This document shows, piece after piece, positions 2,409 through 58,171 of a stretch of 64,000 nt of DNA. The translations under genes were made by a program, and so were the position numbers. The notes beneath the pieces are model-generated. The model was given only the letters and a program-made list of their open reading frames with translations. It was not told the DNA's origin and made no database searches. Source of the DNA: a virus; IMG/VR virus record IMGVR_UViG_3300042346_000326, positions 33,381 to 97,380 of that record; one strand, 5' to 3'. Each line of letters begins with the position of its first letter. The stretch's first letter is position 1.

Positions 2409-3137
2409 ATGGGGAGTAAAATCATTAAGATTTTAAAGTTTATACCAGATTTAAAAACTACTTCTATAGAAATCTCTTCTCCAGTCCCTGCCATCACGAC
2501 CATACCAAATTGGTACAGGACTATACCTCAGTTTATGAATGGTGAAAAGAAACTTAAAGTAATTCCTGGTGAAAGAAGCGTAAATACTACTGTAAAACGT
2601 TGCACCCCCTTTTTGGATGGAATGACCATAGGTTATATGCTGGTTTTGTCAGACGATATTCAAGTTGTAATAGATACTCAAACAGGTTTTCAAGGTCTTT
2701 GGTGGAGAACTTCTTCTACATTAGTTACTGAACATGCTTCAGAACAACATCCAAATCTTTACATTTCAGAAGAATATTCAAATAAAGTTTTTAAATGGGC
2801 AAATGAATGGCAGTTACAAACTCCTCCAGGTTACAGTCTCTATTGTTCTCATCCTTCTAACAGGCTAGACCTTCCCTTTCATACTTTTACAGGAGTTGTT
2901 GATTCAGACCTTTACCCGTTGTCTACTCAATTTCCTTTTGTGATTAAAAAAGACTTTGAAGGTATTATTGAACGAGGAACGCCTGTTGCTCAACTAATCC
3001 CAATAAAGAGAGATTTATGGAAGTCTCAAGTTGAACTTTACGATGAAACAAGTCACCCACGAAGAATGCGTCAATTTTTTGGAAAAATAGACAGGGCATA
3101 CAAAAACAACTTTTGGTCTAAAAAGGTTTATCAATAG
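2409..3137 (+). CDS. 'TPPGYS' family protein, paralogue 1 of 5 (DUF6065-like)
   Basis: 242 aa. It shares an ordered motif set with four other proteins in this window (50.8-54.2 kb): IPxWYR near residue 35, KRCTPFLDGMTIGY near 67, TPPGYS near 139, HPSNRLDLPFHTFTGVVDSD near 148-168, and FEGIIERGTPVAQLIPIKRDLW near 185-205. The pattern resembles phage proteins annotated DUF6065, from memory and not checked. Function unknown; the beta-rich, Gly/Pro-rich layout would suit a jelly-roll fold. It stands alone, 48 kb from the other copies, with its own short upstream gap. Confidence 0.75.
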   Translation: MGSKIIKILKFIPDLKTTSIEISSPVPAITTIPNWYRTIPQFMNGEKKLKVIPGERSVNTTVKRCTPFLDGMTIGYMLVLSDDIQVVIDTQTGFQGLWWRTSSTLVTEHASEQHPNLYISEEYSNKVFKWANEWQLQTPPGYSLYCSHPSNRLDLPFHTFTGVVDSDLYPLSTQFPFVIKKDFEGIIERGTPVAQLIPIKRDLWKSQVELYDETSHPRRMRQFFGKIDRAYKNNFWSKKVYQ

Positions 3138-41247: not shown

Positions 41248-44067
41248 GTGGCACGTAAATATTTAACCCCAATTGATTTAACTAAGTTAGAACTTCAGAA
41301 TGCCCGCATTCAGAACCTAGCAACAGCCCCAGGAAGCCCAGTAGTAGGTCAAATCTATTTTGACACTGTACTTGGTTATCTTCGTGTTTGGAATGGCAGT
41401 GCATGGGTTAATACAAGCCAAGGTGCTCAAGGTACGCAAGGCACTCAAGGTACAACTGGTGCTCAAGGTACACAAGGAACACAGGGAACCGCAGGTGCGC
41501 AAGGTCTTGACGGTGCTAATGGTTCGCAAGGTACACAAGGAACACAAGGTACACAAGGTACTGTTGGTGCGCAAGGAACTCAAGGAACACAGGGCACCGA
41601 AGGTGCGCAAGGCGCAGAAGGTGCACAAGGTACAACTGGTGAGACTGGTGCTCAAGGTACGCAAGGAACACAAGGTGTTGAGGGACAACAGGGTGTACAG
41701 GGAACTCAAGGCACGCAAGGCGTTCAAGGTACTGAAGGACAGCAAGGAGTTCAAGGAACTGTTGGTTCTCAAGGCACACAAGGAACTGTTGGTTCTCAAG
41801 GCACACAAGGAACTGTTGGTTCTCAAGGCACCACAGGAGCGCAAGGTGCGGAAGGTGCACAAGGAACGGCTGGTGCGCAAGGTACAGAAGGCGCCCAAGG
41901 AACACAGGGAACACAAGGTACTCAAGGTGTTCAAGGTAAAGAAGGTTCCTTTGGTGGTATTTCATTTGAGTATAACTATGACAACTCAACCACTATGGCA
42001 GACCCAGGCGATACATACATTCGCCTTAATGCTTCTCCTTCTTCAGCAACAGCACTTGCAATTGATGACGTAAACGCTGCTTCAGTAGACATTCATCCAT
42101 ATCTACAAACAATTGATGACTCTACTTCAACAATTAAGGGTCACGTAAAGATTTCTCTAAAGTCAGATAGCAACACGTTTGCTCTCTACACAATTAGCAA
42201 CCTAACAGATAATGCAACATGGTTTCAAATAACAATTGCATATGTATCTGGTAATGGTTCATTCACAGATGAAGATGATGTAATTTTAACTTTTGCTCGT
42301 ACTGGTGATGTTGGTGCACAGGGTGCTCAAGGTACAACGGGTGCTCAAGGCGTACAGGGCACTACAGGTGCTCAGGGAGCAGAAGGTGCTCAAGGTACAG
42401 AGGGCGCTCAAGGTACAGAAGGTGCACAGGGAGTTCAAGGTACTGAAGGACAACAGGGTACTCAAGGAACTTTAGGTGCTCAGGGTACTCAAGGTACCGA
42501 AGGAGCCCAAGGCGTCGAAGGACAACAGGGCGTTCAGGGCGTTCAGGGAACTCAGGGCGTTCAAGGTACTCAAGGTGCAGACGGTATTCAAGGTCTAGAC
42601 GGTGCTAACGGTACCCAAGGTACAGTCGGTGCACAGGGTACAGTCGGTTCACAAGGAACAACTGGAGCCCAAGGTACTCAAGGTACAGCAGCACTTTGGA
42701 ACTTTACTGGTGCTTATAACATCGGATTACCATATGCAGTTGGCGATGTAGCAACTTACCAAGGACAGACTTGGTACCGCAAAAATGCTAATGGCGGTAA
42801 CGTTGGAGATACTCCTTCAGAAGGAACCTTCTGGACATTGCTTTCTGCGCAAGGCGTTCAAGGCACTGTAGGTTCACAGGGCACTGCGGGAACTCAGGGT
42901 ACTCAAGGTACACAGGGTGCTACTGGTACAACTGACCCAATCACTGCTGGCTATGCATTAACTAAGGTCGGAGACCAGGTCTCATTTGATGCCTTCGTCG
43001 CAAGTACTGGAGCAGGATTCGAAGGCGCTCAGTACACAACAACACTAAAGGCAATTGCTCCAACTGACAACAACGTAATTAACTTGCCAGATGCAGCAGG
43101 TACTATCGCTCTTACCAGCGATATCACAGCGACAATTGCTGATACTGATGATGTTCCAGAAGGTACTACAAACCTCTACTACACTGATGAGCGTGTAGAT
43201 GACCGTGTTAACGACCTTATCGTTGATGGTACTGGTATTCAAACCACCTACAACGATGGCGCTCAAACACTAACTATCGCTGTTGACACGACAGTCATCG
43301 CAACTCGTGCATACGTAGACTCAACAGCACAAGGTCTTGATGTCAAGGCTTCTGTTAAAGTTGCAACGACAGCAGCATTAGCAACCTACGCCTTCTCTAA
43401 CACAGGTGGCGGAACTCTTACGGCAAGTGCTAATGGCGCCCTAACAATTGATGGTGTAAATCTTGCGCAAGGTAACCGTGTTCTTGTAAAGAATGAAGCA
43501 GGTGCTAACGAGAAGTACAACGGTGTCTACTCCGTAGCAACTGCTGGTGATGGAAGCACTCCATGGGAGTTGATGCGTGCAGACGATGCAAATGCTTCTG
43601 CAGATGTCACAGCAGGCCTCTTCACATTCGTTGAGCAAGGCACAACAAATGCTGATACTGGCTGGGTATTAACAACTAATGACAGCATCACCCTTAACAC
43701 TACAGCGCTAACCTTCACACAGTTCTCTGGTGCAGGAACATACATCGCTGGTGGCGGTCTAACTCTTACTGGTAACACATTTGCAGTGGGCGCTGGAACA
43801 GGTATCACCGTAAACGCTGATGATGTTGCAGTAGACACAACCACAGTTGCTAGAAAGTACACAACCACAGTTGGTGACAACAGCGCAACATCCTTTACAA
43901 TCACACACAACTTCAATACACGTGGAGTCGTTGTTTCGGTTTACAACGCAGCCTCCGCTTATGAAGAGGTAGTTGTAGATGTTGAAAAGACAACCGTCAA
44001 CACCGTTACTGTGAAGTTTGCTGAAGCCCCAGCAACTAATGCTTACGTCGTGGCGGTCATTGGCTAA
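41248..44067 (+). CDS. Collagen-like tail fibre protein
   Basis: 939 aa from a GTG with AAGGAGA upstream. An N-terminal attachment segment (LTPIDLTKLELQNARIQNLA, WNGSAWVNTS), then Gly-X-Y repeats (GTQGTQGAQ style, about 58-235, 355-485 and 535-560) broken by globular domains, then a C-terminal domain with repeats (TDERVDDRVNDLIVDGTGIQ) and a receptor-type tip. Bacterial collagen repeats form rigid triple helices; this is a host-recognition fibre. Repetitive DNA makes it prone to length change. Confidence 0.88.
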   Translation: MARKYLTPIDLTKLELQNARIQNLATAPGSPVVGQIYFDTVLGYLRVWNGSAWVNTSQGAQGTQGTQGTTGAQGTQGTQGTAGAQGLDGANGSQGTQGTQGTQGTVGAQGTQGTQGTEGAQGAEGAQGTTGETGAQGTQGTQGVEGQQGVQGTQGTQGVQGTEGQQGVQGTVGSQGTQGTVGSQGTQGTVGSQGTTGAQGAEGAQGTAGAQGTEGAQGTQGTQGTQGVQGKEGSFGGISFEYNYDNSTTMADPGDTYIRLNASPSSATALAIDDVNAASVDIHPYLQTIDDSTSTIKGHVKISLKSDSNTFALYTISNLTDNATWFQITIAYVSGNGSFTDEDDVILTFARTGDVGAQGAQGTTGAQGVQGTTGAQGAEGAQGTEGAQGTEGAQGVQGTEGQQGTQGTLGAQGTQGTEGAQGVEGQQGVQGVQGTQGVQGTQGADGIQGLDGANGTQGTVGAQGTVGSQGTTGAQGTQGTAALWNFTGAYNIGLPYAVGDVATYQGQTWYRKNANGGNVGDTPSEGTFWTLLSAQGVQGTVGSQGTAGTQGTQGTQGATGTTDPITAGYALTKVGDQVSFDAFVASTGAGFEGAQYTTTLKAIAPTDNNVINLPDAAGTIALTSDITATIADTDDVPEGTTNLYYTDERVDDRVNDLIVDGTGIQTTYNDGAQTLTIAVDTTVIATRAYVDSTAQGLDVKASVKVATTAALATYAFSNTGGGTLTASANGALTIDGVNLAQGNRVLVKNEAGANEKYNGVYSVATAGDGSTPWELMRADDANASADVTAGLFTFVEQGTTNADTGWVLTTNDSITLNTTALTFTQFSGAGTYIAGGGLTLTGNTFAVGAGTGITVNADDVAVDTTTVARKYTTTVGDNSATSFTITHNFNTRGVVVSVYNAASAYEEVVVDVEKTTVNTVTVKFAEAPATNAYVVAVIG

Positions 44068-44069
44068 CG

Positions 44070-44351
44070 ATGAGCAGCAGAGCACTAGTACCACTGAACG
44101 TACTGGCTACCGTTACGGAGCCAGTAGGTCAGCATGCTGGTGACCTCTACTTTAATCCAGACAATCACAACCTCTATGTATTTGATGGAGTATTCTGGGT
44201 CGAGATATCGACAGTACCTACTTTCGACATCATAGAGGGTGGCGACGAAGCAAGCGGAAGCGACACCTATCTGTCAACAGCAGAAGGTGGAGACGAAGCA
44301 GGTGGCAGTGATTCTTATACCAGTTCCTATGATGGTGGAGGAGTAATCTAA
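44070..44351 (+). CDS. Small virion protein between the two fibres
   Basis: 93 aa. PVGQHAGDLYFNPDNHNLYVFDGVFWVEI is a short hub-like beta domain; the tail has two imperfect copies of GGDEA(S/G)GSD(T/S)Y. Overlaps the next start by 1 nt. Possibly a connector for the second fibre. Confidence 0.65.
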   Translation: MSSRALVPLNVLATVTEPVGQHAGDLYFNPDNHNLYVFDGVFWVEISTVPTFDIIEGGDEASGSDTYLSTAEGGDEAGGSDSYTSSYDGGGVI

Positions 44352-45643
44352 TGGCAGTAACAATCAAATTACGTCGTGGAACAGCAACGAACTGGTCAAC
44401 GAATAATCCAACTTTAGCCGCTGGTGAAGTCGGCATTGAAACCGATACTGGAAAATTAAAGATTGGTAATGGCTCTACCTCTTGGAACTCTCTTCCATAT
44501 GGCGGATTACAAGGTACTCAAGGAACTCAAGGTGTTCAGGGCGTTCAAGGTACACAGGGAGTCCAAGGAGTAGGGGGTGCTCAAGGAACCACTGGAGATA
44601 CTGGAGCCCAAGGTACTCAGGGAACACAAGGTACTCAAGGAACTCAAGGTACTCAGGGAACTCAGGGAACAGTTGGAGCCCAAGGTACTCAGGGAACACA
44701 AGGCGCTGAAGGTTCACAGGGTGCTGAAGGACAACAAGGTACTCAAGGAACGCAGGGTACGCAAGGCGTACAGGGAACTATTGGTTCTCAAGGTGTACAG
44801 GGTGTTCAGGGTACACAGGGTGTGCAAGGAAGCGAAGGACAACAAGGAACTCAAGGAACGACAGGCTCTCAGGGAGTTCAAGGTACCCAAGGCACTCAAG
44901 GAACCCAAGGAACCCAAGGAACTCAAGGTTCAATAGGAGCCCAAGGTGTTCAAGGTCTTGCTGGTCAAAGCGGTTCGTCATCTAGCATTTTTGAGTTTAA
45001 AGCAGACGCAAATAGCCAAGCAGACTCTGCTCCATCCAATGGACATCTTCGTTGGAACAACGCCACTCAAAAGAATGCTTCTTTTATATATATAAGCCAT
45101 CTCGACACTCTTGGTAATGACAATGATGTGATTTTTTCACTCATTAAACAAGGCGATGTAATCACTGTTCAGAAAAAAGACAATTCAGATGATTATCAAA
45201 CATTTAATGTTAGTGGCGCTATAACAGTTATTTCGAACAGTTACATAAAGATTCCAGTATCAAATACTGGTTCTGGTGGTGTTGGAGCGACTAATTTTTC
45301 TCAAAATGACACTCTGTTATTCGTTATTACAAGCGTCGGTGTTCAAGGTCCAACTGGTGCGCAAGGCGTTCAAGGAACCGTCGGTGCACAAGGAACAGTT
45401 GGTTCACAGGGTGTACAAGGAACGCAGGGAACACAGGGTGTACAAGGAACCATCGGTGCTCAAGGAGCCCAAGGAACGACAGGCTCTCAGGGAGTTCAAG
45501 GTGTTCAAGGCACAGTTGGTACTGGTACACAGGGAACTCAAGGTGTGCAAGGAACTGCAGGTACCACAGGTACTCAAGGAACAGCAGGAACTGCAGCAGC
45601 AGGCGGTTCTATCCCAGATATCCTGATGCTAGGTGGTATGTAG
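44351..45643 (+). CDS. Collagen-like fibre with Mtd-type N-terminal hub domain
   Basis: 430 aa. The first 50 residues (IKLRRGTATNWSTNNPTLAAGEVGIETDTGKLKIGNGSTSWNSLPY) match the N-terminal beta-prism-like hub domain of many tail fibres. Then Gly-X-Y repeats (about 52-205), a globular domain (about 210-330), and a second repeat block ending in a short tip. The stop lies 15 nt inside the convergent glycosyltransferase gene. Confidence 0.85.
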   Translation: MAVTIKLRRGTATNWSTNNPTLAAGEVGIETDTGKLKIGNGSTSWNSLPYGGLQGTQGTQGVQGVQGTQGVQGVGGAQGTTGDTGAQGTQGTQGTQGTQGTQGTQGTVGAQGTQGTQGAEGSQGAEGQQGTQGTQGTQGVQGTIGSQGVQGVQGTQGVQGSEGQQGTQGTTGSQGVQGTQGTQGTQGTQGTQGSIGAQGVQGLAGQSGSSSSIFEFKADANSQADSAPSNGHLRWNNATQKNASFIYISHLDTLGNDNDVIFSLIKQGDVITVQKKDNSDDYQTFNVSGAITVISNSYIKIPVSNTGSGGVGATNFSQNDTLLFVITSVGVQGPTGAQGVQGTVGAQGTVGSQGVQGTQGTQGVQGTIGAQGAQGTTGSQGVQGVQGTVGTGTQGTQGVQGTAGTTGTQGTAGTAAAGGSIPDILMLGGM

Positions 45644-46369
45644 TAGTTCTGTACTGCCCCAGTGAATTTGGCTTTTACGGGCTGCATCTAAATTAAACTT
45701 TACTGGTCTATACGCATTTGGCTTTAGAGTGTAAGTTGCAAATCTCATTTGGTCTGGTTCTTGTTTCATTCTAAAATTAAATACATACCAATCTACTGGC
45801 GCTGTTATGCCACGTGTGGCTACATCATTCAGAGCCTTTTCTGCCCCACGTCTACTCACTGCATACGCAGCACATGACCACTGTTGATATGACCTACAAA
45901 TGTGCTGTTCATAAATATCGTGCTGTTCTTCGTTATAGGCAAACAGCGAGTCATCAGGAACAAAGATAGAGAAGAAGTCCCAGGTAGGCATCAACTCCTG
46001 CATATAAAAGTTTGTAATCATTTGAAAGTTTGCACTTAGTTCAACATCATCTTCAAAAATGAGTAGCACATCCTTATCAGTTTGCAAGAAGTTTTTATAT
46101 GCCAACCAGTTACTTGCCCAGACTCCAACTACTCCTGATGATGGAGGGAAGGTCTCTCCTGGCTGTGCATAGTCTTCTACAGTGTTTACTTTAAAGTCAG
46201 GATTATCGTTGATGAAGTCCTCAGCCTTATCTATAGTGTTTAAGTATTGAGTTGGAGAACCAAGCCTTGGAAGAAAATCAAGCCTCTTTAAAATTTTTTC
46301 ATAGGCTCTATTACGTATTTCATTTCCAGTATCAGTATGAAAGACCTCAAAGCAGGCATTGTTTAACAT
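45629..46369 (-). CDS. Glycosyltransferase, GT25 (LPS-type) family
   Basis: 246 aa. GVVGVWASNWLAYKNFLQTD and VLLIFEDDVELSANF (with the E-D-D metal/nucleotide motif), then WSCAAYAVSRRGAEKAL and PVDWYVFNF, are the GT25 order. It would add a hexose to a glycan or protein. Last gene of a minus operon starting at 48.4 kb; overlaps the methyltransferase by 7 nt. Confidence 0.8.
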   Translation of the reverse strand: MLNNACFEVFHTDTGNEIRNRAYEKILKRLDFLPRLGSPTQYLNTIDKAEDFINDNPDFKVNTVEDYAQPGETFPPSSGVVGVWASNWLAYKNFLQTDKDVLLIFEDDVELSANFQMITNFYMQELMPTWDFFSIFVPDDSLFAYNEEQHDIYEQHICRSYQQWSCAAYAVSRRGAEKALNDVATRGITAPVDWYVFNFRMKQEPDQMRFATYTLKPNAYRPVKFNLDAARKSQIHWGSTELLHTT

Positions 46370-48555: not shown

Positions 48556-48882
48556 ATGGCAACAACCTATAAGGTTCTGGGTCAATCTAACCCAGCAGCA
48601 ACTACGGAAACTACCCTACTAACTACAACAGCAGCCACCGTAGTTTCAACACTCGCTGTCTGCAATCAAGCAGGCACAGCAGCAACATATCGAATTGCAA
48701 TTCGTCCATCTGCTGATGGAGCCACTGCAGCAAAACATTTTATTGTTTATGGGGCAACTGTTGGCGCTTCTGATGCAATTATGCTTACGCTTGGTGTTAC
48801 GCTTGCTTCTGGCGATAAAATACAGGTCTTTGCATCATCAGCAAACGTCTCCTTCACTGCATTTGGAAGTGAGATTTCCTAA
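48556..48882 (+). CDS. Small fibre or decoration protein
   Basis: 108 aa, Thr/Ala-rich beta sandwich: TTTAATVVSTLAVCNQAGTAATYRIAIRP and GVTLASGDKIQVFASSANVSFTAFGSEIS. This is a common phage pattern found beside fibres. AAGGAG before the ATG. Its stop shares 1 nt with the glycine-rich fibre. Confidence 0.75.
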   Translation: MATTYKVLGQSNPAATTETTLLTTTAATVVSTLAVCNQAGTAATYRIAIRPSADGATAAKHFIVYGATVGASDAIMLTLGVTLASGDKIQVFASSANVSFTAFGSEIS

Positions 48883-50354
48883 TGTCAGTACGTAAAGCAA
48901 GCGAATCTGGTGTTCAACCAGCAGTTACAATTCCAGATGTTCCAGATGCTCCAACAATTGGTGCCGCTACAGATGTAGGTACCTCTCGTGCGTACAATAA
49001 CGGTGCAGCAACTGTTGCTGTAACTGCAGCCGCTACTGGAGGCGCCCTTTCTTTTTATCAAGCAACTTCAAGTCCTGGTGGATTTACAGCAACTAGTGCA
49101 TCCTCTCCCGTAACTGTTACAGGTCTTGCCGCAGGAACTTCATACACTTTTATTGGTCGTGCTGGAAACTCAACAGCAGTAAGCACAACCACTTCAGCAT
49201 CAAATAGCATTACAGCAACAACTATTCCTCAAGCACCTACAATTGGTGCCGTCACTTCTTCTGCCTCACAAGAAGCAACAGTCAATTTTACTGCTGGAGC
49301 AACTGGCGGAAAAGCAGTTTCACATTTTACTGCAACTTCTAGCCCTGGTTCTATAACAAAAACTGGAGCATCTAGTCCCATCACTGTAACTGGACTTACA
49401 AATGGAACTGCGTATACATTTACCGTTACTGGAACTAACGCAAATGGAACATCTAGTGCATCTTCAGCAAGTTCATCTGTAACGCCAGTATCACCTGCAC
49501 CATCATCTGTTGAAGTCTTAATTGTTGCTGGTGGCGGTGGTGGGGGAGTTGGGTTTAATTATTCCTCTGGTGGTGGCGGCGGCGGCGCAGGTGGCTATAG
49601 AACAACTACTTCTTACGCAGTTTCTGGTGCAACTTCCTACGCTGTGGCTGTTGGAGGCGGCGGCGCAGGAGGAGCAGCAAGTGCTAGTATTGGAAGTAAC
49701 GGTGGAACAAGCACATTCGGTGCATTAAACTCATCAGGTGGTGGCGGTGGAGCAGGTAACACTGGACAAAACATTACACGTTCTGGTAACGCTGGTGGTA
49801 GCGGCGGAGGATGCGGCGCTTGGGACCCTCAATTAGGTGGCAGTTTTCAAGCAGGTGGCGCTGGCAACGCTGGTGGTTATTCTCCAGCAGAAGGATACGC
49901 TGGACGTGGTGTGACAAGTTTTGGTGGTGCACGCGCAACTGGTGGTGGTGGAGCAGGAACTGCTTCTCCTGGAACTGATGGTAATGGTAACCAAAATGGA
50001 ACTGCTGGCGAAGCAGGTGCTGCATCATCTATTACGGGTTCTTCTGTCACCCGCGCTGGTGGTGGTGGCGGTGGTGCAGGAACTAATGGCGGTGGCGCAG
50101 GCGGTGGTGGAACTGGAAATGTTGCAGATGTAATTGGTGGCGCAGGAAGTGCAAACACTGGTGGTGGAGGTGGCGGTTGTCGTCACAATGCTGTTGGAGG
50201 TGCAGGAGGTTCTGGAGTTGTAATTCTTGCTTATTCAGACACAAATCCACTCCCTACAATTGGTGCTGGGTTAACCTACACATCAAGCACTACAAGTCGC
50301 GCTGGTTACAGAGTGGTTACTTTCTTATCTGGCAGTGGAAACATTAATTGGTAG
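48882..50354 (+). CDS. Fibronectin-III / glycine-rich tail fibre protein
   Basis: 490 aa. Two FN3-like domains (about 20-105 and 115-205, each ending in a TSxxNSIT-type strand), then a glycine-rich domain (205-440: LIVAGGGGGGVGF, SGGGGGGAGGY ... GGGGGGC) and a closing strand (GSGVVILAYSDTNPLPT). Such poly-Gly sandwiches form receptor-binding tips in T-even-like phages. A probable host-recognition adhesin. Confidence 0.85.
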   Translation: MSVRKASESGVQPAVTIPDVPDAPTIGAATDVGTSRAYNNGAATVAVTAAATGGALSFYQATSSPGGFTATSASSPVTVTGLAAGTSYTFIGRAGNSTAVSTTTSASNSITATTIPQAPTIGAVTSSASQEATVNFTAGATGGKAVSHFTATSSPGSITKTGASSPITVTGLTNGTAYTFTVTGTNANGTSSASSASSSVTPVSPAPSSVEVLIVAGGGGGGVGFNYSSGGGGGGAGGYRTTTSYAVSGATSYAVAVGGGGAGGAASASIGSNGGTSTFGALNSSGGGGGAGNTGQNITRSGNAGGSGGGCGAWDPQLGGSFQAGGAGNAGGYSPAEGYAGRGVTSFGGARATGGGGAGTASPGTDGNGNQNGTAGEAGAASSITGSSVTRAGGGGGGAGTNGGGAGGGGTGNVADVIGGAGSANTGGGGGGCRHNAVGGAGGSGVVILAYSDTNPLPTIGAGLTYTSSTTSRAGYRVVTFLSGSGNINW

Positions 50355-50772: not shown

Positions 50773-51462
50773 TTATTTGTAGTTTTTTCTTTGCCAAAAT
50801 ACAGTTCTATAAGCGTCAAAAAATACTGTCTTTATTTTGACAACTTGATTTTCAATAGTTTCTTTCATTTTTGTTGTTGTTGATTCCCAAGAGTCTCTTT
50901 TAAAGGGTATTACTTGAACAAAAGGAGTTCCTTTTGAAATTATTCCTTCAAATTTTGGATTTGACAAAGTAAAAGGAAAATTAGTAGGAACGTGGTATTT
51001 ATCTGTATCTACAACTCCAGGAAGAATAACAATTAAGTTATCTCGGTGCAAAGGCGGTACAAACAAACACGAGTATCCTGATGGAGTTTTTATCCCCCAA
51101 TAATTATTTATTTTAGGAGTGTCAACTCCACTTGATACGGGATGTAGATAAAGTTGAGAGTTTCCATGAAAAGAAATATAATCTCCAGCAGGCCAGTGAA
51201 ACCAGGGTCTTCCATCAATTTGTTCTACGTAAATATCAACAGCAGTAGTAATTAAGTATCCTGTAGAAAGAGAGTCCAGAACAGGAACGCAGCGCTTTAT
51301 GGATGCCGTTGTTGCGGAATCTTTATGAGGTCTTTTTTTTCCTTGAACTTGTAAAGAATAAGATGGCATGTTTTTATACCATTCAGGCAAAACTTTTATT
51401 GCTGATATTGGCGGGTCTGTCTCAAATGGGCCATGGTCTATAAACTCTATGTTTTTAGTCAT
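50773..51462 (-). CDS. 'TPPGYS' family protein, paralogue 2 (DUF6065-like)
   Basis: 229 aa from the ATG at 51462 (GGAGAAAG upstream), giving an MTKNIEF start like paralogue 4. Motifs: LPEWYKNMP, IKRCVPVLDSLSTGYL, KTPSGYSCLFVPPLHRDN, LPGVVDTDKYHVPTNFPF and FEGIISKGTPFVQVIPFKRDSW. It is the shortest copy and has Ser for Pro in TPPGYS. Overlaps paralogue 3 by 8 nt. Confidence 0.78.
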   Translation of the reverse strand: MTKNIEFIDHGPFETDPPISAIKVLPEWYKNMPSYSLQVQGKKRPHKDSATTASIKRCVPVLDSLSTGYLITTAVDIYVEQIDGRPWFHWPAGDYISFHGNSQLYLHPVSSGVDTPKINNYWGIKTPSGYSCLFVPPLHRDNLIVILPGVVDTDKYHVPTNFPFTLSNPKFEGIISKGTPFVQVIPFKRDSWESTTTKMKETIENQVVKIKTVFFDAYRTVFWQRKNYK

Positions 51463-52150
51463 AGTTTTTCTTTCTCCAAAATGTTTGTTTATAAAACCCA
51501 GATACTTTTCTAGTTGAAAAATATCTATTTCTTTCTCCAATTTCAATAATATCTTTGTTTTCTTTTGAAGTCCAGTTCTCTCTTTTAAAAGGAAGTATTT
51601 GGAGTATAGGGGTTCCTTGGGGCACTATTCCTTCCCAATCTTTTTCAAAAACAAAAGGTACGTTTCCTGCGTTCACCCCGCAGTCTGAGTCTATTACTGC
51701 TGACAAAGTTTGGAACGGAAGGTCTATTCTGTTAAATGGATGACTAACAAAAGAACTATATCCTGGAGGTGTTCTAAAGTAATAAGGAAATTTCCATGCA
51801 TAAACATCGTGACCATACCTTTTAGAGATAGGCATTCCCTGAACAATTTCAGCAGGTCTTCCTTCTAAAATATCTGGTTTTTGATTCCAAGTAAAGTTAG
51901 GCACACCACCTATTTGACGAACTTGAAGGTCTTGCCAAAGTTCTGCAATGTATCCACTGGTTAGTGAGTCTAAATACGGGGCACATAGTTTTACAGTTTG
52001 ATGTCCTTCTACAGTGTCTGAATTTAATATTGATTTTCCACCAACAAATCTTTCTGCTTTTTTATACCATTCAGGAATATACTTCTTAGATGAAGCGGGC
52101 AGGTCTAGGTAAGGATGGCCAACGGCAAACTCAATGAGTCTATACTTCAT
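51455..52150 (-). CDS. 'TPPGYS' family protein, paralogue 3
   Basis: 231 aa. Motifs: IPEWYKKAE, VKLCAPYLDSLTSGYI, RTPPGYSSFVSHPFNRIDLPF, SAVIDSDCG and WEGIVPQGTPILQILPFKRENW. A leaderless-type promoter lies just upstream (TTGAAG-N17-TAGGTT-N6-ATG), although AAGGA also precedes the ATG. Diverges from the 2OG dioxygenase gene. Confidence 0.78.
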   Translation of the reverse strand: MKYRLIEFAVGHPYLDLPASSKKYIPEWYKKAERFVGGKSILNSDTVEGHQTVKLCAPYLDSLTSGYIAELWQDLQVRQIGGVPNFTWNQKPDILEGRPAEIVQGMPISKRYGHDVYAWKFPYYFRTPPGYSSFVSHPFNRIDLPFQTLSAVIDSDCGVNAGNVPFVFEKDWEGIVPQGTPILQILPFKRENWTSKENKDIIEIGERNRYFSTRKVSGFYKQTFWRKKNYD

Positions 52151-52156
52151 TCCTTA

Positions 52157-52185
52157 AACCTATCAAATAACCTAAGCATCTTCAA
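52157..52185 (-). promoter_or_regulatory. Promoter of the minus-strand paralogue pair
   Basis: On the minus strand TTGAAG-N17-TAGGTT, ending 6 nt before the ATG at 52150: the best -35/-10 match among the leaderless-type starts. Confidence 0.6.
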
Positions 52186-52227
52186 CCCCTAAATTAGTAC
52201 CTTAATCTAGGGTAGGATAAAGGGTGA

Positions 52228-52233
52228 TAGGCT
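52228..52233 (+). promoter_or_regulatory. -10 hexamer TAGGCT before the dioxygenase gene
   Basis: GTGATAGGCT, the same string as before the 18457 gene, 33 nt ahead of the ATG at 52267; here a ribosome site (AAAGGAG) follows, so a leader is present. Confidence 0.45.
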
Positions 52234-52266
52234 GTCTCACAGTAACAAAAATAAAGGAGAGAACAT

Positions 52267-52761
52267 ATGGGGTATCAAATTTATGATAACTTTTTACCTG
52301 AAAAACAGTTTAAAGACATGCAGCATTTTTTGTTAAAAGACGGCCTTTGCCCTTGGTATTACAACTCGTTCATAGTTAATGACAATCAAGACACCTTTGC
52401 ATTTCAATTTACCCATACATTTTTACGAGGAAGTGACGACTACATTAGTCCCTATGTTTCAAAGATAGAGCCTCTTATTCATAAAGTAAACCCATCATCT
52501 ATCTTTAAGATAAAAGCAAATCTTGGGGGAAGAACTCCTACGAACGAAGAGGGCGGTTATCACACAGACTTTTCTTTTGATTGTAAAACTGCGGTCTATT
52601 ATGTGAACACAAATAATGGGTATACTTTATTTAAAGATGGTACAAAAATTGACAGTATAGAAAATCGTTTTGTAGTATTTGACTCATCTATGGAACATAC
52701 GGGAGTTTCTCAAACAGATACAAAAGTACGTTGTTTAATAAACTTAAATTATGTTTTGTAA
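52267..52761 (+). CDS. 2-oxoglutarate/Fe(II)-dependent dioxygenase
   Basis: 164 aa. The double-stranded beta-helix iron site is complete: His99-x-Asp101 (GYHTDF), His144 (SSMEHTG), and Arg155 for 2-oxoglutarate (KVRCLINL). FEDNRFVVFDS-like strand (ENRFVVFDSS) precedes the last His. Such phage enzymes hydroxylate proteins, nucleobases or sugars; surrounded by glycan genes and the paralogue family, the substrate may be one of these. Strong AAAGGAG ribosome site. Confidence 0.85.
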   Translation: MGYQIYDNFLPEKQFKDMQHFLLKDGLCPWYYNSFIVNDNQDTFAFQFTHTFLRGSDDYISPYVSKIEPLIHKVNPSSIFKIKANLGGRTPTNEEGGYHTDFSFDCKTAVYYVNTNNGYTLFKDGTKIDSIENRFVVFDSSMEHTGVSQTDTKVRCLINLNYVL

Positions 52762-52762
52762 A

Positions 52763-53491
52763 ATGACAAAAAATATCAAGTTCATTGCTCGTGACCCGTA
52801 TGGTTGGGAAGTCTATCCAAAACCATATCCAGCGGCTACTGCAGTGCCTTCTTGGTGGAAAGATTCTACTCCTTATAAAATTACTGACAATAATCCTGAT
52901 GGTAAAAAATTTTTGGTTGAAAATTTAGGTGCTAATACCACGTTTAAAAAATGTACTCCTATGTTAGACGCTCTTACTGCTGGGTATATTGTTCCTCTTT
53001 ATACAGACGTCCAAATGCGGTGGACACCAAATGGACCATTAGTTACATGGAGAGTGAAAGGTTCTGACGTATTTTCACCTCATGGGCCAGAAGGAAAAGT
53101 TCCTGGACTTGAAATTCCAACAGGGTATTCAGACTATATTTTTAAATATAACAATACTTGGATACCTAAAACTCCACCTGGATATTCTGTTCTCATTACA
53201 TCTCCTTTTGGTTATAGAAACCTTCCTTTTTACGCTATTCCAGCCATAGTAGACTCAGACAAAAGTTCTCTAGAGATTGTTCCTCCAATGTGGATAAAAC
53301 AAAACTTTGAAGGAATAATCTCAAAAGGAACTCCTATGTTTCAAGTAATACCCTTTAAAAGAGAAAATTGGAAAACAGAGTTTGATTTTTATTCTGAAAA
53401 TGAATACCAAAAAATAACTGATAAAACGTTTAACTCAACACTTGTAAATCACTACATTAAAAATGTATGGAGTAGAAAGACCTTCAAATGA
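52763..53491 (+). CDS. 'TPPGYS' family protein, paralogue 4
   Basis: 242 aa from the ATG at 52763 (MTKNIKF, like paralogue 2); an ATG at 52751 overlapping the dioxygenase is the alternative. Motifs: VPSWWKDSTP, FKKCTPMLDALTAGYIVPL, KTPPGYSVLITSPFGYRNLPF, PAIVDSDKSS, FEGIISKGTPMFQVIPFKRENW. Coupled to the dioxygenase, so perhaps its partner or substrate. Confidence 0.78.
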   Translation: MTKNIKFIARDPYGWEVYPKPYPAATAVPSWWKDSTPYKITDNNPDGKKFLVENLGANTTFKKCTPMLDALTAGYIVPLYTDVQMRWTPNGPLVTWRVKGSDVFSPHGPEGKVPGLEIPTGYSDYIFKYNNTWIPKTPPGYSVLITSPFGYRNLPFYAIPAIVDSDKSSLEIVPPMWIKQNFEGIISKGTPMFQVIPFKRENWKTEFDFYSENEYQKITDKTFNSTLVNHYIKNVWSRKTFK

Positions 53492-54213
53492 AAAAAATAA
53501 CTTTTACAGCATTAACAGACCGTACTTTAAAACTTGAACCAAATCCAACACCAGCAAGTATGCATAGTCCAGCATGGTACAAAAAAACACCCAAATATGA
53601 ATCTGCAAACGGCGGTTCGCAGTCAATAGTTGAGTTTTTAAAAATTGACAACTTTCATATGACATTTAAAATGTGTCAACCATTTACCGATGCTTTAGTT
53701 TCTGGTTATATGATTACTCTTCCAGCGACAATTGTGGTTACACAAACACTTAATTCTGAAGGAGTTTTTTCTCCAAATATAAGATGGAACACCAATTGGG
53801 ATATTGTTGATGCTCAAAGCCCTTTTGTAGCAAGTAAGTTACCAAAACCAGAGGGGTACTCTTCTAATTTATTTAGATGGATTTCAAATTGGAAAATTGA
53901 AACCCCATTAGGTTATAGCGCATTGTTTATGCATCCTATATATAGGTATGACCTTCCATTTCATACCTTGACTGGGTTTGTAGATACTGATAAAAATCCT
54001 AATCCTCTTCTACTTCCTTTTTTTGTAAAAGAAAATTTTGAAGGAGAAATACCTTTGGGAACACCTATTGCACAAGTGTTTCCTATCAAAAGAGATTCTT
54101 GGGAAAGTAATATATCACAAAACATTTTGGACCCTTACGGACCCATGAGAGTAAAGCAAACTTTTCAAAGAGCGTATAAAAAATTGTACTGGTCTAAAAA
54201 ATCTTACAAATAG
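53488..54213 (+). CDS. 'TPPGYS' family protein, paralogue 5
   Basis: 241 aa. Motifs: SPAWYKKTPKY, FKMCQPFTDALVSGYM, ETPLGYSALFMHPIYRYDLPF, TGFVDTDKNPNPLLLPFFV, FEGEIPLGTPIAQVFPIKRDSW. Leu replaces Pro in TPPGYS. Overlaps paralogue 4 by 4 nt; its stop abuts the convergent glycosyltransferase stop. Confidence 0.78.
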   Translation: MKKITFTALTDRTLKLEPNPTPASMHSPAWYKKTPKYESANGGSQSIVEFLKIDNFHMTFKMCQPFTDALVSGYMITLPATIVVTQTLNSEGVFSPNIRWNTNWDIVDAQSPFVASKLPKPEGYSSNLFRWISNWKIETPLGYSALFMHPIYRYDLPFHTLTGFVDTDKNPNPLLLPFFVKENFEGEIPLGTPIAQVFPIKRDSWESNISQNILDPYGPMRVKQTFQRAYKKLYWSKKSYK

Positions 54214-55116
54214 TTACAAACTTTTAGAAAACTCTATCCAAGATTTTTTAAAAACATCCAAAGAAAAACGAGAGTTTATGTGTTGTGCAGCATCTTTAGG
54301 GTCATACAGGTTTGACTGTACTCTTTTAATTGCATCATTCATAGTTTTTGCAAAAACCTCAACATGATTATTGTTTTCAATTTTATAAACCATACCCTGC
54401 TGTTGCCCAACCTCAACCAAAGCATCTTGGTCACTGTGAACTGGGATGCAGTTTGCACTAATGGCTTCTCCTAATGAAATGCAAAAAGTTTCATCAAAAG
54501 AACAGGGATAAGAAAAAATATGAGATTCTGAAAGAACTTTTCTTACAGTTGTATGAGGAGTAAGGCCATAGAACACTACTCTTGAATCAAACTCAATACC
54601 TGGAGCAGAAATATCTGGGTAAAAATTGCTAAAAACATTGACTTCAATATTGCCTTCAATCAAGGGCATTGCATTTAAAAGAACTTCTAATCCCCTATCT
54701 GCACTTGAAGTATATATGGCTTTTACTTTATTTACATTTTTAAATCTTAATACGTCATTTTCTACTGGTTCTATTACATTTGAAATAACAACTACTTTAT
54801 TTCTGTCTATTCCTAAATCTTTAACTACAGAGTTTTTTAAATGGTTAGAGACTACAACTACTGCTTTTAATTTTTTTAAAAATAAAGGATGACTAAATTC
54901 ATACAATAAATTGTAATTAAACTGATTAAATGGATTGTGTAACCATAAAATTGTATCTTTGTCATCTTTTAAAAGAGATTCAACAGAAGGCATGTAACCA
55001 GGCGCTATCATGCAGTTAAACTTGTTTAATGTTGGAACTAATGACTCTACATGAGTTTTAAACAGTCTTGCCATGTGTTCAGTTCCGCCATAGACTTCAG
55101 AGTTAACTTGAAACAT
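54214..55116 (-). CDS. Glycosyltransferase, GT4/GT-B type
   Basis: 300 aa from the ATG at 55116 (TAATG with the upstream gene). N-terminal QVNSEVYGGTEHMARLF, middle DTILWLHNPFNQFNYNLL and KAVVVVSNHLKNSVVKDLGIDRNKVVVISNVI, C-terminal KAIYTSSADRGLEVLLNAMPLI, FYGLTPHTTVRKVLSESHIFSYPCSFDETFCISLGEAISANC (the E-x7-E donor-sugar motif: DETFCISLGEA). It transfers a nucleotide sugar. Confidence 0.85.
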   Translation of the reverse strand: MFQVNSEVYGGTEHMARLFKTHVESLVPTLNKFNCMIAPGYMPSVESLLKDDKDTILWLHNPFNQFNYNLLYEFSHPLFLKKLKAVVVVSNHLKNSVVKDLGIDRNKVVVISNVIEPVENDVLRFKNVNKVKAIYTSSADRGLEVLLNAMPLIEGNIEVNVFSNFYPDISAPGIEFDSRVVFYGLTPHTTVRKVLSESHIFSYPCSFDETFCISLGEAISANCIPVHSDQDALVEVGQQQGMVYKIENNNHVEVFAKTMNDAIKRVQSNLYDPKDAAQHINSRFSLDVFKKSWIEFSKSL

Positions 55117-55808
55117 TACTTTTCTCCAAACTGAGCCCACCAATGCTCATAGTATTCTTTGTCTAAATAAACTTTTTTAATATGTCGTGCAATAGCGCCT
55201 GTGTGAGCAAAAACTGGAATTTCTTGTTCTCTTAGTTTCTCAAAAAAAGAAATGTCCTCACTTTTTATAGGCTTAATCAAACTAACATCGAAAAGATTGC
55301 CTTTTTTGTAAACTTTATACAAAGCATCTATTACAGACCTATGAATTAAAAGTAATCCCATACCAGCAGCATCTACTTGAACTAACGCATTATCAGGTAA
55401 AGGATGTACTGACTTATAGTCTTCTTCTTTTTTGTCATATAAAAAAATACATGGAAAAGGCATCCTTAAAACCCCATCAGTAGCCTTATAAGTCATGTAC
55501 ACACCAGTAATGACTGGAAATTTATCTTTATCTGCCACATCCCACAAATTATCAAAAATGTCTGGAGTTATGATTATGTCGCTGTCTAGCCAAAGCAACC
55601 AATCAGCAGTCTCATCTTCATACCATGAGTCCAATAAGTCTTGTCTTTGCCTAAAGATTTCGTTGCCCATCCTGTGTGTTACTGAGTACAAAGGGATATT
55701 ACGCTGTTGAAGGCGCAGCATCACTGCTATTACGCTGCTCATAAACGGACTTTCAACTGTGGAAGGGTCACACCAAGCGATGGTTATTGTTTCTTCAGGA
55801 GAGTGCAT
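55116..55808 (-). CDS. Glycosyltransferase, GT-A type
   Basis: 230 aa from the ATG at 55808, chosen because TATGTT ends 6 nt upstream (ATGs at 55826 and 55832 are alternatives). ITIAWCDPSTVESPFMSSVI, TADWLLWLDSDIIITPDIFD with the D-x-D metal motif, PVITGVYMTYKATDG and VDAAGMGLLLIHRSVID are GT-A features. SEDISFFEKLREQEIPVFAHTG ends the catalytic region. Works with the GT4 gene downstream. Confidence 0.8.
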   Translation of the reverse strand: MHSPEETITIAWCDPSTVESPFMSSVIAVMLRLQQRNIPLYSVTHRMGNEIFRQRQDLLDSWYEDETADWLLWLDSDIIITPDIFDNLWDVADKDKFPVITGVYMTYKATDGVLRMPFPCIFLYDKKEEDYKSVHPLPDNALVQVDAAGMGLLLIHRSVIDALYKVYKKGNLFDVSLIKPIKSEDISFFEKLREQEIPVFAHTGAIARHIKKVYLDKEYYEHWWAQFGEK

Positions 55809-55814
55809 GAGAAA

Positions 55815-55860
55815 AACATACCACATTGACACCGCTTTGAGGTAAGTCCCACCCTACAAT
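55815..55860. promoter_or_regulatory. Divergent leaderless-type promoters
   Basis: Minus: TATGTT (55815-55820) 6 nt before the ATG at 55808. Plus: TTGACA (55826-55831), 23 nt, TACAAT (55855-55860), 7 nt, ATG at 55868. Neither gene has a ribosome site. Confidence 0.55.
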
Positions 55861-56408: not shown

Positions 56409-56546
56409 ATGACTTTTGAACCAGAAATCGACGTAGACCTCTTTGACGAAGATTTGGTAGAAGAAATTGACCATGAATTTGATATGGCCGAAGACTATGA
56501 TGACCATGCTTGGGACGAAGAAGAACTAGTAGAAGAGGAAGAGTAA
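56409..56546 (+). CDS. Tiny highly acidic protein
   Basis: 45 aa, about half Asp/Glu (MTFEPEIDVDLFDEDLVEEI, then EFDMAEDYDDHAWDEEELVE). AGGAG precedes the ATG, and the stop overlaps the next start. It is the only acidic member in a row of basic mini-proteins and might neutralise them or mimic DNA. Confidence 0.7.
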   Translation: MTFEPEIDVDLFDEDLVEEIDHEFDMAEDYDDHAWDEEELVEEEE

Positions 56547-56728
56547 TGGCAAATAAAAAAGCAACAGCAAAACAAAAGGGCAAGGTTGAAACCGTCATGC
56601 GGGAGTACAAGTCTGGCAAATTAAAGTCAGGAAAAAAGGGACCTGGTAAAGGACCTGTAGTTAAGTCACGTAAGCAGGCCGTTGCTATCGCTATGAGCGA
56701 AGCAGGAATGTCTAAAAAGAAAAAATAA
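56546..56728 (+). CDS. DUF6496-like basic protein
   Basis: 60 aa: KGKVETVMREYKSGKLKSGK, GPVVKSRKQAVAIAMSEAGM, KKKK. The V-M-x-E-Y/F-K-x-G-x-L-x-S-G ... S-R-K-Q-A-x-A-I-A-x-S-E-A pattern is that of a small family common in phages (DUF6496, from memory). Function unknown. Confidence 0.8.
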   Translation: MANKKATAKQKGKVETVMREYKSGKLKSGKKGPGKGPVVKSRKQAVAIAMSEAGMSKKKK

Positions 56729-56913
56729 TGAAAAGACGTAAAAGAACGCCTGGTGCTCGCGCAGGAAAAGCCCCCTCTAAACAAGTAAGAACAACTTTAA
56801 CTGAAGCAAAATACTCTTCAGGTGGCGCTAAATTAAAGAGGAAGAAAGGCGGCTTCGTACGCAAGCCAAAGCCCCCAATACATTACAAACGTAAGAAAGT
56901 GACCTTTGACTAA
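56728..56913 (+). CDS. Small basic protein
   Basis: 61 aa, Lys/Arg-rich with no acidic stretch (MKRRKRTPGARAGKAPSKQV; RKKGGFVRKPKPPIHYKRKK). One-nt overlaps on both sides. Likely DNA-binding. Confidence 0.65.
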   Translation: MKRRKRTPGARAGKAPSKQVRTTLTEAKYSSGGAKLKRKKGGFVRKPKPPIHYKRKKVTFD

Positions 56914-57143
56914 TGGCAAAGACAATTAAGGTTCAAGGAACAAAACACACCGTTAAGAAGAACAAGAAAGGCGATGTGATTGTCGACCACGAAGCCAAGG
57001 CTAAGGCTGGTAAGTGGGACAAGATTAACTTGACCAAGAAGGGCGGCTCTAAGACCGTTGAAGAGGGCGTCAAGGCTGTAAAAGATTGGCACAAGAAGAA
57101 TCCTCACAAGAAGGTGAAACGTGGCAGCAAAAAAGACAAGTAA
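56913..57143 (+). CDS. Small basic protein
   Basis: 76 aa. IKVQGTKHTVKKNKKGDVIVDHEAKAKAGKWDKINLTKKGGSKT has a beta-hairpin core (IKVQGTKHTV... DVIVDH) and TVEEGVKAVKDWHKKNPHKK a helix. Found in order in other phages in my recollection, without a function. Overlaps the next start by 23 nt. Confidence 0.7.
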   Translation: MAKTIKVQGTKHTVKKNKKGDVIVDHEAKAKAGKWDKINLTKKGGSKTVEEGVKAVKDWHKKNPHKKVKRGSKKDK

Positions 57144-57312
57144 GTCAAAAGTAAACCAAGCAGGTAACTACACCAAGCCTGGTATGCGCAAAGCGCTCTT
57201 TAATAAGATTAAGGCTGGCTCCAAGGGTGGAGACCCAGGAGAATGGAGCGCAAGAAAAGCACAACTTCTTGCCTCTGAATATAAGAAGGCAGGCGGAGGG
57301 TACAAGAACTAG
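57121..57312 (+). CDS. Small basic protein (same family as the 35.2-kb protein)
   Basis: 63 aa from a GTG. YTKPGMRKALFNKIKAGSKG, EWSARKAQLLASEYKKAGGG end in YKN. The last third parallels the 35.2-kb protein (AWVAKKYQQAGGQY). Overlaps the previous gene. Confidence 0.7.
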   Translation: MAAKKTSKSKVNQAGNYTKPGMRKALFNKIKAGSKGGDPGEWSARKAQLLASEYKKAGGGYKN

Positions 57313-57313
57313 A

Positions 57314-57550
57314 ATGGCCCTTGCTAAATCACAGAAGTCCTTAAAGAAGTGGTCACAAGAGAAGTGGCGTACTTCCGATGGGAAAGAGTCTAAAGGTAAA
57401 AAGAGATACCTGCCAGATAAAGCATGGGATAGTCTTTCTCCTTCAGAAAAGGCTGCTACTAACCGCGCTAAAGCCGAAGGCAATAGCAAAGGAAAGCAGT
57501 TTGTAAAACAACCCAAAAAAATTGCCGCAAAGACGGCAAGACACCGATAG
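57314..57550 (+). CDS. DUF5872-like basic protein
   Basis: 78 aa. SLKKWSQEKWRTSDGKESKG, KKRYLPDKAWDSLSPSEKAA, TNRAKAEGNSKGKQFVKQPK: the W-x4-W-x-T-S ... Y-L-P-x-x-A-W-x-x-L ... E ... T-x-x-K pattern of a short phage/giant-virus family (DUF5872, from memory). Function unknown. Confidence 0.75.
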   Translation: MALAKSQKSLKKWSQEKWRTSDGKESKGKKRYLPDKAWDSLSPSEKAATNRAKAEGNSKGKQFVKQPKKIAAKTARHR

Positions 57551-57559
57551 GAGATACCC

Positions 57560-57676
57560 ATGTGTAGCACTTGTGGCTGTATGAAGCCGAAAGATAAGCA
57601 CGGAGAGAAGACTCTAGCCGCTGCTAACAAGAAGTATGCCAAGAAGAAGAACGACAAGAAGAAGGAGAAAAAGTAA
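57560..57676 (+). CDS. Cys-headed Lys-rich mini-protein
   Basis: 38 aa: MCSTCGCMKPKDKHGEKTLA, then AANKKYAKKKNDKKKEKK. Cys2, Cys5 and Cys7 (plus His14) suggest metal binding at the N-terminus; the rest is basic. AGGAG upstream; TAATG into the next gene. Confidence 0.65.
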   Translation: MCSTCGCMKPKDKHGEKTLAAANKKYAKKKNDKKKEKK

Positions 57677-57741
57677 TGGCTCTCTCCTGTAATATGAAGA
57701 ATTGTAAGTGTAAATGCAATGTTTGCAAAGGAAAGAAATAA
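57676..57741 (+). CDS. Metallothionein-like 21-residue protein
   Basis: 21 aa with five Cys, reading MALSCNMKNCKCKCNVCKGK plus a final Lys. Cys-x-Cys-x-Cys-x2-Cys spacing is metallothionein-like. Very short, but the TAATG overlaps at both ends and its position in an unbroken gene series support it. Confidence 0.55.
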   Translation: MALSCNMKNCKCKCNVCKGKK

Positions 57742-57887
57742 TGGCGCTAAAAGGTAAACAAACCAAACTTGACTTAAACAAGAACGGCAAACTTGATAAG
57801 GAAGACTTCTCAATGCTACGTGGCAAGAAGGGCGCTGCTAAAGCCAAAGGCAAGAAGCAGGCTATGCCAAGAAAGAAGGGCATGTAG
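57741..57887 (+). CDS. EF-hand-like mini-protein
   Basis: 48 aa. LDLNKNGKLDKEDFSMLRG contains a canonical 12-residue calcium loop (Asp, Asn, Asn, Gly, Leu, Asp at positions 1, 3, 5, 6, 8, 12), then a Lys-rich tail. Similar single-EF-hand proteins occur in marine phages. A GTG overlap joins it to the next gene. Confidence 0.75.
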   Translation: MALKGKQTKLDLNKNGKLDKEDFSMLRGKKGAAKAKGKKQAMPRKKGM

Positions 57888-58171
57888 TGAAGAAGCCACC
57901 TATGAAGGGCAAGTACACCAAGAAGTCCGATGAAAAGATGGACTCCTACTTGACCAAGAAGGCTGGTCTTGACAAAGAAGAAAAAGAAGAGTTTGAGAAG
58001 AAAGACAAGGCTCACGGAAAAAAGAAGAAACCGAAGACTCTTCAAGAGGATGTCAAGATTGATAAGAAGATTATCAAGGGCATAAAGAAGAAAGAAAAGG
58101 CCCACGAAAAGAAGGAAGGCAAGAAGGGCGAGAAGGCCGAAGAAAAGCGGGAGAAGAAAGAAAAGAAGTAG
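57887..58171 (+). CDS. Highly charged Lys/Glu protein
   Basis: 94 aa from a GTG, over half Lys and Glu, helical (KKSDEKMDSYLTKKAGLDKEEKEEFEKK; KIDKKIIKGIKKKEKAHEKKEGKK). The N-terminal PPMKGKYTKKSDEKMDSYL has some fold signal. Last gene before a terminator. Confidence 0.65.
   Translation: MKKPPMKGKYTKKSDEKMDSYLTKKAGLDKEEKEEFEKKDKAHGKKKKPKTLQEDVKIDKKIIKGIKKKEKAHEKKEGKKGEKAEEKREKKEKK

Follow-up and report, generated by a model that had tools for sequence, protein, structure and literature searches.

Viral PHROG 7084 proteins as a predicted branch of the dUTPase superfamily, with an apparently altered site that the paired DUF6065 paralogue seems to lack

The window analysed here, i.e. a stretch of 64,000 nucleotides covering positions 33,381 to 97,380 of the IMG/VR record IMGVR_UViG_3300042346_000326 (uncultured virus, 97,380 bases), encodes five homologous proteins of PHROG 7084, a family so far without function, which, as judged from predicted structure, are divergent members of the trimeric dUTPase/dCTP deaminase superfamily (beta-clip fold). 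What seems to be new is a branch of this superfamily with a rewritten site, together with a paired paralogue, DUF6065, that apparently lost it. A widespread viral family that had no function is thus assigned to a superfamily of well understood enzymes, with specific residues proposed for mutation, and a partner protein apparently devoid of the site comes to light. Besides, a conserved multi-oxygenase cassette provides a testable partner for some of the many phage 2-oxoglutarate (2OG) oxygenases, and a propagated, probably wrong label, namely 'DNA endonuclease V', is flagged.

Open reading frames (ORFs) exist for each of the five genes that a previous sequence-only reading of the window had proposed, at 50773 (copy 1), 51455 (copy 2), 52763 (copy 3), 53488 (copy 4) and 2409 (copy 5), and the complete record contains exactly these five. 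All match PHROG 7084 over most of their length, with E values of 3.5e-51, 2e-33, 1.8e-41, 6.3e-34 and 3.2e-43 for copies 1 to 5, respectively. The proteins align end to end, with 31-34% identity to copy 1 and 34 invariant columns, among which the four ordered motifs described in that reading are recovered. The resemblance to Pfam DUF6065 (PF19541), proposed in the same reading, stands as kinship but not as membership for all copies: DUF6065 is a distant sister subfamily homologous to the window proteins, and only copy 5 (28.7 bits) passes the curated cut-off of 26.6, copies 1 and 2 scoring below it (21.8 and 22.9) and copies 3 and 4 giving no match. A literature search found no paper that names DUF6065.

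Regarding the fold, the family was modelled with AlphaFold (AF2) as a single chain on copy 5, using an alignment of 94 sequences gathering the window copies and IMG/VR loci, and the model reached a predicted local distance difference test (pLDDT) of 95.9. When compared with the PDB, all 50 matches listed were dUTPases or dCTP deaminases (DCDs), the best being 3ecy (E 1.2e-4, target-normalised template modelling (TM) score 0.73), and in a viral structure library the family's own relatives ranked first with dUTPases next. DUF6065 proper, modelled independently from 34 sequences (pLDDT 87.2), likewise returned dUTPase/DCD only among the 50 matches listed, 36 of them at E<=1e-3. At the N-terminus, the family has a helical region in addition to the dUTPase-like domain, and it ends in a C-terminal tail.

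By the letters alone, TPPGY...GVVDSD...GTPxAQL recalls dUTPase motifs II-IV. A sequence search of the PDB with a 5-row profile of the family gave chance matches only, and with a 94-row profile dUTPases came out at E 1.3-2.2, non-significant by themselves. As three-sequence templates were too shallow, a deep dUTPase profile of 81 members was made for hhalign, against which the family scored 26.5 (E 0.002), to be compared with a maximum of 16.7 across 60 column-shuffled controls. In the register obtained, motifs III-IV of dUTPase are matched by the 'TPPGYS…VDSD…GTP.Q' core, and D165, Y169 and Q195 fall on D90, Y93 and Q119 of the E. coli Dut. The dUTPase equivalents of these residues activate water (Asp), stack on the deoxyribose (Tyr) and bind the alpha-phosphate (Gln) (PMC3905902). 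In the part corresponding to motif I, where dUTPases have the Mg-binding Asp, the family presents GY and Asp83, the profile alignment there not being confident.

Like the trimeric dUTPases (PF00692), the family combines the predicted fold, the GVVDSD motif with the position of the catalytic Asp and the motif IV Gln (GTPxxQ). Unlike them, it has neither an RSG motif II nor a motif V, carries the extra N-terminal region and gives no PF00692 match; because motifs II and V are missing, it is not to be called dUTPase. No PF00692 dUTPase was found in the window's record, nor in 50 of 51 family-bearing records. The DCDs and bifunctional DCD-DUT enzymes belong to the same superfamily and are among the fold matches (2yzj, 2r9q, 4dhk), but a corresponding profile alignment over their catalytic Ser/Arg/Glu was not obtained, hhalign to a shallow 3-sequence DCD template covering 24 columns out of register (E 0.15).

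Conservation was counted over 179 family members and 88 DUF6065 proteins. In the former, the residues kept are D165 (175), D167 (175), Q195 (178), K63 (177), D70 (175), K200 (175) and R201 (176), C65 is also about 98-99% conserved, and position 169 is Tyr or Phe in most members. In DUF6065, these seven residues from D165 to R201 are all replaced, mostly by S, S, S/A, Y, L, S/N and L, respectively, and W35, C65, P67, G75, D83, Y231 and K239 are retained. Since the seven are lost as a block, their pattern suggests that they form a single site, present in PHROG 7084 and gone in DUF6065, a protein which is nonetheless homologous and of the same predicted fold, and whose gene often stands in tandem with one for a 7084 protein.

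When 104 sequences were placed in a tree, the copies of the window took up five places, each nearest to copies from other phages and, across multi-copy contigs, 0 of 62 copies have their closest relative within their own contig. From these scattered positions, the window set is a gathering of five old, differentiated lineages and not a recent expansion. The selection for variety put forward in the sequence-only reading consequently needs rewording: the copies are diverse indeed, but as separate old lineages. Of note, the two-gene tandems at loci L016/L036 and L041/L051, although carried by different phages, each combine the same two branches of the tree, which hints at fixed partners.

The genes under discussion are arranged in the window as follows.
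50773 to 51462, minus strand: copy 1 (PHROG 7084), start inferred at MTKNIEF; keeps D165, D167, Y169 and Q195.
51455 to 52150, minus strand: copy 2 (PHROG 7084); keeps D165, D167 and Q195, without a Tyr169 equivalent.
52267 to 52761, plus strand: 2-oxoglutarate/Fe(II) oxygenase of the PHROG 274 family, as judged from motif, profile comparison and PHROG cross-hits.
52763 to 53491, plus strand: copy 3 (PHROG 7084), ORF opening at 52751; without a Tyr169 equivalent.
53488 to 54213, plus strand: copy 4 (PHROG 7084); Asp83 replaced by Thr, without a Tyr169 equivalent.
2409 to 3137, plus strand: copy 5 (PHROG 7084); keeps D165, D167, Y169 and Q195.
3248 to 5272, plus strand: class II (B12-dependent) ribonucleotide reductase (Pfam RNR_Alpha E 1.9e-29, RNR-II insertion domain E 5e-15).
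48882 to 50354, plus strand: fibronectin-III (fn3)/glycine-rich tail-fibre-like protein, of the type that recurs most often among the family's named neighbours.
54214 to 55143, minus strand: glycosyltransferase, group 1/GT4-like (Pfam and PHROG searches).
55116 to 55832, minus strand: glycosyltransferase, PHROG 34859 (Pfam and PHROG searches).

Copies 1 and 2 make up a minus-strand pair with an 8-base overlap between the start of copy 1 and the end of copy 2. The outermost possible start of the copy 1 ORF is 51546, but 51462 is the likely one, as is 52763 for copy 3, because both proteins then open with MTKNI-F. On the plus strand, the oxygenase gene ends one base before the likely ATG of copy 3, which in turn overlaps copy 4 by 4 bases; the coupling of a dioxygenase to one of the copies, as well as the presence of two glycosyltransferase genes next to the cluster, had been rightly noticed. 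The class II ribonucleotide reductase lies directly downstream of copy 5, at 111 bases. A scan for promoters and terminators around the cluster gave no clear excess over shuffled sequence.

Beyond the window, the neighbours of 80 IMG/VR family loci were surveyed, near meaning within two genes and the distant sample being taken four or more genes away. Oxygenases of PF13640 account for 24 of 244 near against 2 of 125 distant neighbours (Fisher p=0.002), those recognized by family-built hidden Markov models (HMMs) for 24/310 against 8/327 (p=0.003) and, once eight oxygenase-rich loci are left out, for 7/274 against 1/300 (p=0.03), all these p-values being optimistic as related contigs are not independent. 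At DUF6065 loci (n=80), 2OG oxygenases are present in every one, with 2-6 such genes in each of the 32 non-redundant loci. The common order is tail fibre, 2OG, 2OG, DUF6065, 7084, 2OG, 2OG, 2OG and class II ribonucleotide reductase, and in 23 of these 32 the DUF6065 gene is immediately followed by that of the 7084 protein, the two abutting or overlapping (spacing 0 to -32 bases). Conserved gene rows of this kind, uniting the family with oxygenases and ribonucleotide reductase, occur in many aquatic phages. The 2OG cassette around DUF6065 and PHROG 7084 is conserved over loci L185-L264, where it often ends in the class II ribonucleotide reductase. A literature search found no report of a phage dUTPase-fold/2OG cassette. 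A link to dioxygenases, which the sequence-only reading had left to a neighbour survey, is therefore borne out, whereas the one to glycan genes is not, glycosyltransferases being rare near and distant alike and no commoner near the family.

Downstream of the family gene, a class II ribonucleotide reductase follows at 90-111 bases in L071-L073, in L080 and in the window itself, and directly in L100; in L061, it is the small subunit of a class I ribonucleotide reductase that adjoins the family gene. Besides, flavin adenine dinucleotide (FAD) tryptophan-halogenase genes occur near the family in L016, L028, L036, L049, L063, L067 and L183, and a PHROG 17480-like protein without known function ('...YWACxENEWMRA...') is present at ten family loci.

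The family extends to archaeal viruses. A genome-collection scan with the 5-row alignment retrieved four genomic relatives, one scan gave more than 580 candidate loci, the viruses concerned being bacterial and archaeal, and 49 of 50 phage records matched by tblastn were Hafunaviridae (haloarchaeal viruses), each at one place. In the six records opened, the gene lies between adhesin/tail-fibre genes and either the class II ribonucleotide reductase (HF2, HRTV-15, HRTV-17) or thymidylate synthase (HSTV-2, HRTV-7, HCTV-6). The HF2 homologue, HrrHF2_475, is annotated as hypothetical only, whereas HF2_495, not far from it, bears the name virion protein VP1. No 2OG gene is annotated near the single family copy of the Hafunaviridae, so that the genomic linkage between the family and 2OG oxygenases is real but not obligatory. 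Of note, a lone chromosomal member is found in a Bradyrhizobium contig (L102:9932-10645), with no phage genes visible around.

As to the oxygenase of the window, the gene at 52267 goes unrecognised by Pfam and PDB sequence searches, but the motif H99-x-D101...H144...R155 is found in 100, 98, 98 and 97 of 100 homologues, its profile aligns with the PF13640-type 2OG oxygenases of the cassettes (hhalign E 4e-5), and the L067 homologue gives a weak PF13640 match (E 0.011). Sequence comparison identifies it as a 2OG-Fe(II) oxygenase, sharing with phage enzymes of this type (PF13640, PHROG 61, PHROG 274) the H-x-D...H...R motif or family matches common to it and the cassette oxygenases, though unlike them it is too divergent for Pfam. 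The name 'DNA endonuclease V', given to its PHROG (274) and to many of the cyanophage homologues, is probably an annotation error since the cassette oxygenases match both PHROG 61 (2OG oxygenase) and PHROG 274. Its oxygenase family occurs in 267 phage records, the PHROG 7084 family being found in a single cyanophage, S-RIM4. Because just 1 of 80 loci of this oxygenase family has a 7084 gene, the former is independent of the latter, and the idea of an oxygenase needing the 7084 family was rejected.

Taken together with a little better than an even chance, the explanation we favour is that these proteins are nucleotide-binding, probably hydrolysing proteins of dUTPase fold with altered specificity, the copies differing from one another in that respect. 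They would most likely assemble into trimers whose intersubunit sites take up, and probably split, a nucleotide or a nucleotide-like pyrophosphate. Asp165 would be the water-activating base and Gln195 would sit at the alpha-phosphate, while Lys63, Lys200 and Arg201 would stand in for phosphate motifs II and V, which are lost. Each copy would have its own specificity as an enzyme. The genes would be cargo placed between those for tail fibres and those for nucleotide synthesis, combined in many phages into one operon with multiple 2OG oxygenases whose task would be to oxidise this small molecule or a related one. The loss of Tyr169 in copies 2, 3 and 4 hints at differing ligands.

Several points weigh against this explanation. 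Neither the Arg-Ser-Gly of dUTPase motif II nor the glycine-rich C-terminus of motif V appears in the five-copy or in the profile alignment, and Tyr169 is missing from 3 of the 5 window copies. A 2OG gene is present at 16 of 80 family loci, most loci lying in the tail region without one, and tail-fibre proteins near the family are almost as common as oxygenases. The adjacency to nucleotide genes may reflect the mere border of tail and replication modules. Finally, HF2 carries a canonical dCTP-deaminase-type gene in addition to the family gene; as both gene types coexist there, the family as a plain dUTPase replacement was set aside as unlikely.

A bolder extension, to which we give limited credence, is that the cassette 2OG-2OG-DUF6065-7084-2OG-2OG-2OG-(ribonucleotide reductase) constitutes an undescribed phage pathway, in which the dUTPase-fold enzyme and its inactive paralogue would form a hetero-oligomer presenting or cleaving the nucleotide that the oxygenases modify. 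If true, aquatic phages would possess a new way of making modified nucleotides, or metabolites derived from nucleotides.

The main rival to a nucleotide-cleaving enzyme, rather improbable in our estimation, is that of non-enzymatic tail helpers of dUTPase fold, i.e. trimeric chaperones or accessory fibre parts that oxygenases encoded next to them would modify. A trimeric state is common to dUTPases and, as a rule, to tail fibres. In the survey, fn3/glycine-rich fibre proteins are enriched near the family (18/244 against 2/125, p=0.026, optimistic for the reason given above), Hafunaviridae keep the family gene beside adhesin genes, and the two collagen-repeat fibre genes of the window adjoin a family-25 glycosyltransferase. 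The homologues of the catalytic Asp and Gln are nonetheless conserved at more than 97%, which is unexpected in a scaffold, the Bradyrhizobium copy has no tail genes around, and copy 5 sits beside the ribonucleotide reductase, far from tail genes.

Less probable still, the family proteins could serve the 2OG oxygenases, and at some loci the FAD halogenases, as carrier or substrate and be themselves hydroxylated or halogenated; a role as substrates of hydroxylation had been proposed in the sequence-only reading. The operon-like organisation of all 32 non-redundant DUF6065 cassettes speaks for it, as do the window and L067, where an oxygenase gene immediately precedes a family gene, and the halogenase found within one or two genes in L016, L028 and L036; the oxygenase family is however present in 267 phage records, whereas S-RIM4 is the single cyanophage in which the 7084 family was detected, one locus of that oxygenase family in 80 has a family gene, and the Hafunaviridae do without an annotated 2OG neighbour. 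Lower again, with only a slight chance, comes the proposal of anti-defence nucleotide sponges, whose divergent copies would bind and remove signalling nucleotides of bacterial immune systems, or the deoxynucleotide (dNTP) pools that these alter: a nucleotide-binding fold, several old lineages per phage and a location in variable cargo islands would suit it, but the conserved putative catalytic pair suggests turnover, and the association with biosynthetic oxygenases and ribonucleotide reductase is steady. As for the sugar-binding jelly-rolls displayed on the virion that the sequence-only reading had envisaged from the glycosyltransferase and tail genes nearby, they are most improbable given the dUTPase-like predicted fold, the absence of any lectin or jelly-roll fold among the PDB matches listed for the family and DUF6065 models, and the lack of glycosyltransferase enrichment.

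Two further features of the window can be mentioned. Downstream of the cluster, on the plus strand, a run of short, very lysine-rich ORFs at 56510-58171 could encode DNA-binding or packaging proteins. Upstream, two collagen-repeat tail-fibre genes (41248-44067 and 44351-45643; Pfam Collagen E 4e-48 and 5e-36), the second with an Mtd N-terminal domain, are directly followed by the family-25 glycosyltransferase gene at 45629-46369. In animals, family-25 glycosyltransferases add sugar onto the hydroxylysine of collagen, and the genes at 41248-46369 possibly represent a phage collagen glycosylation set.

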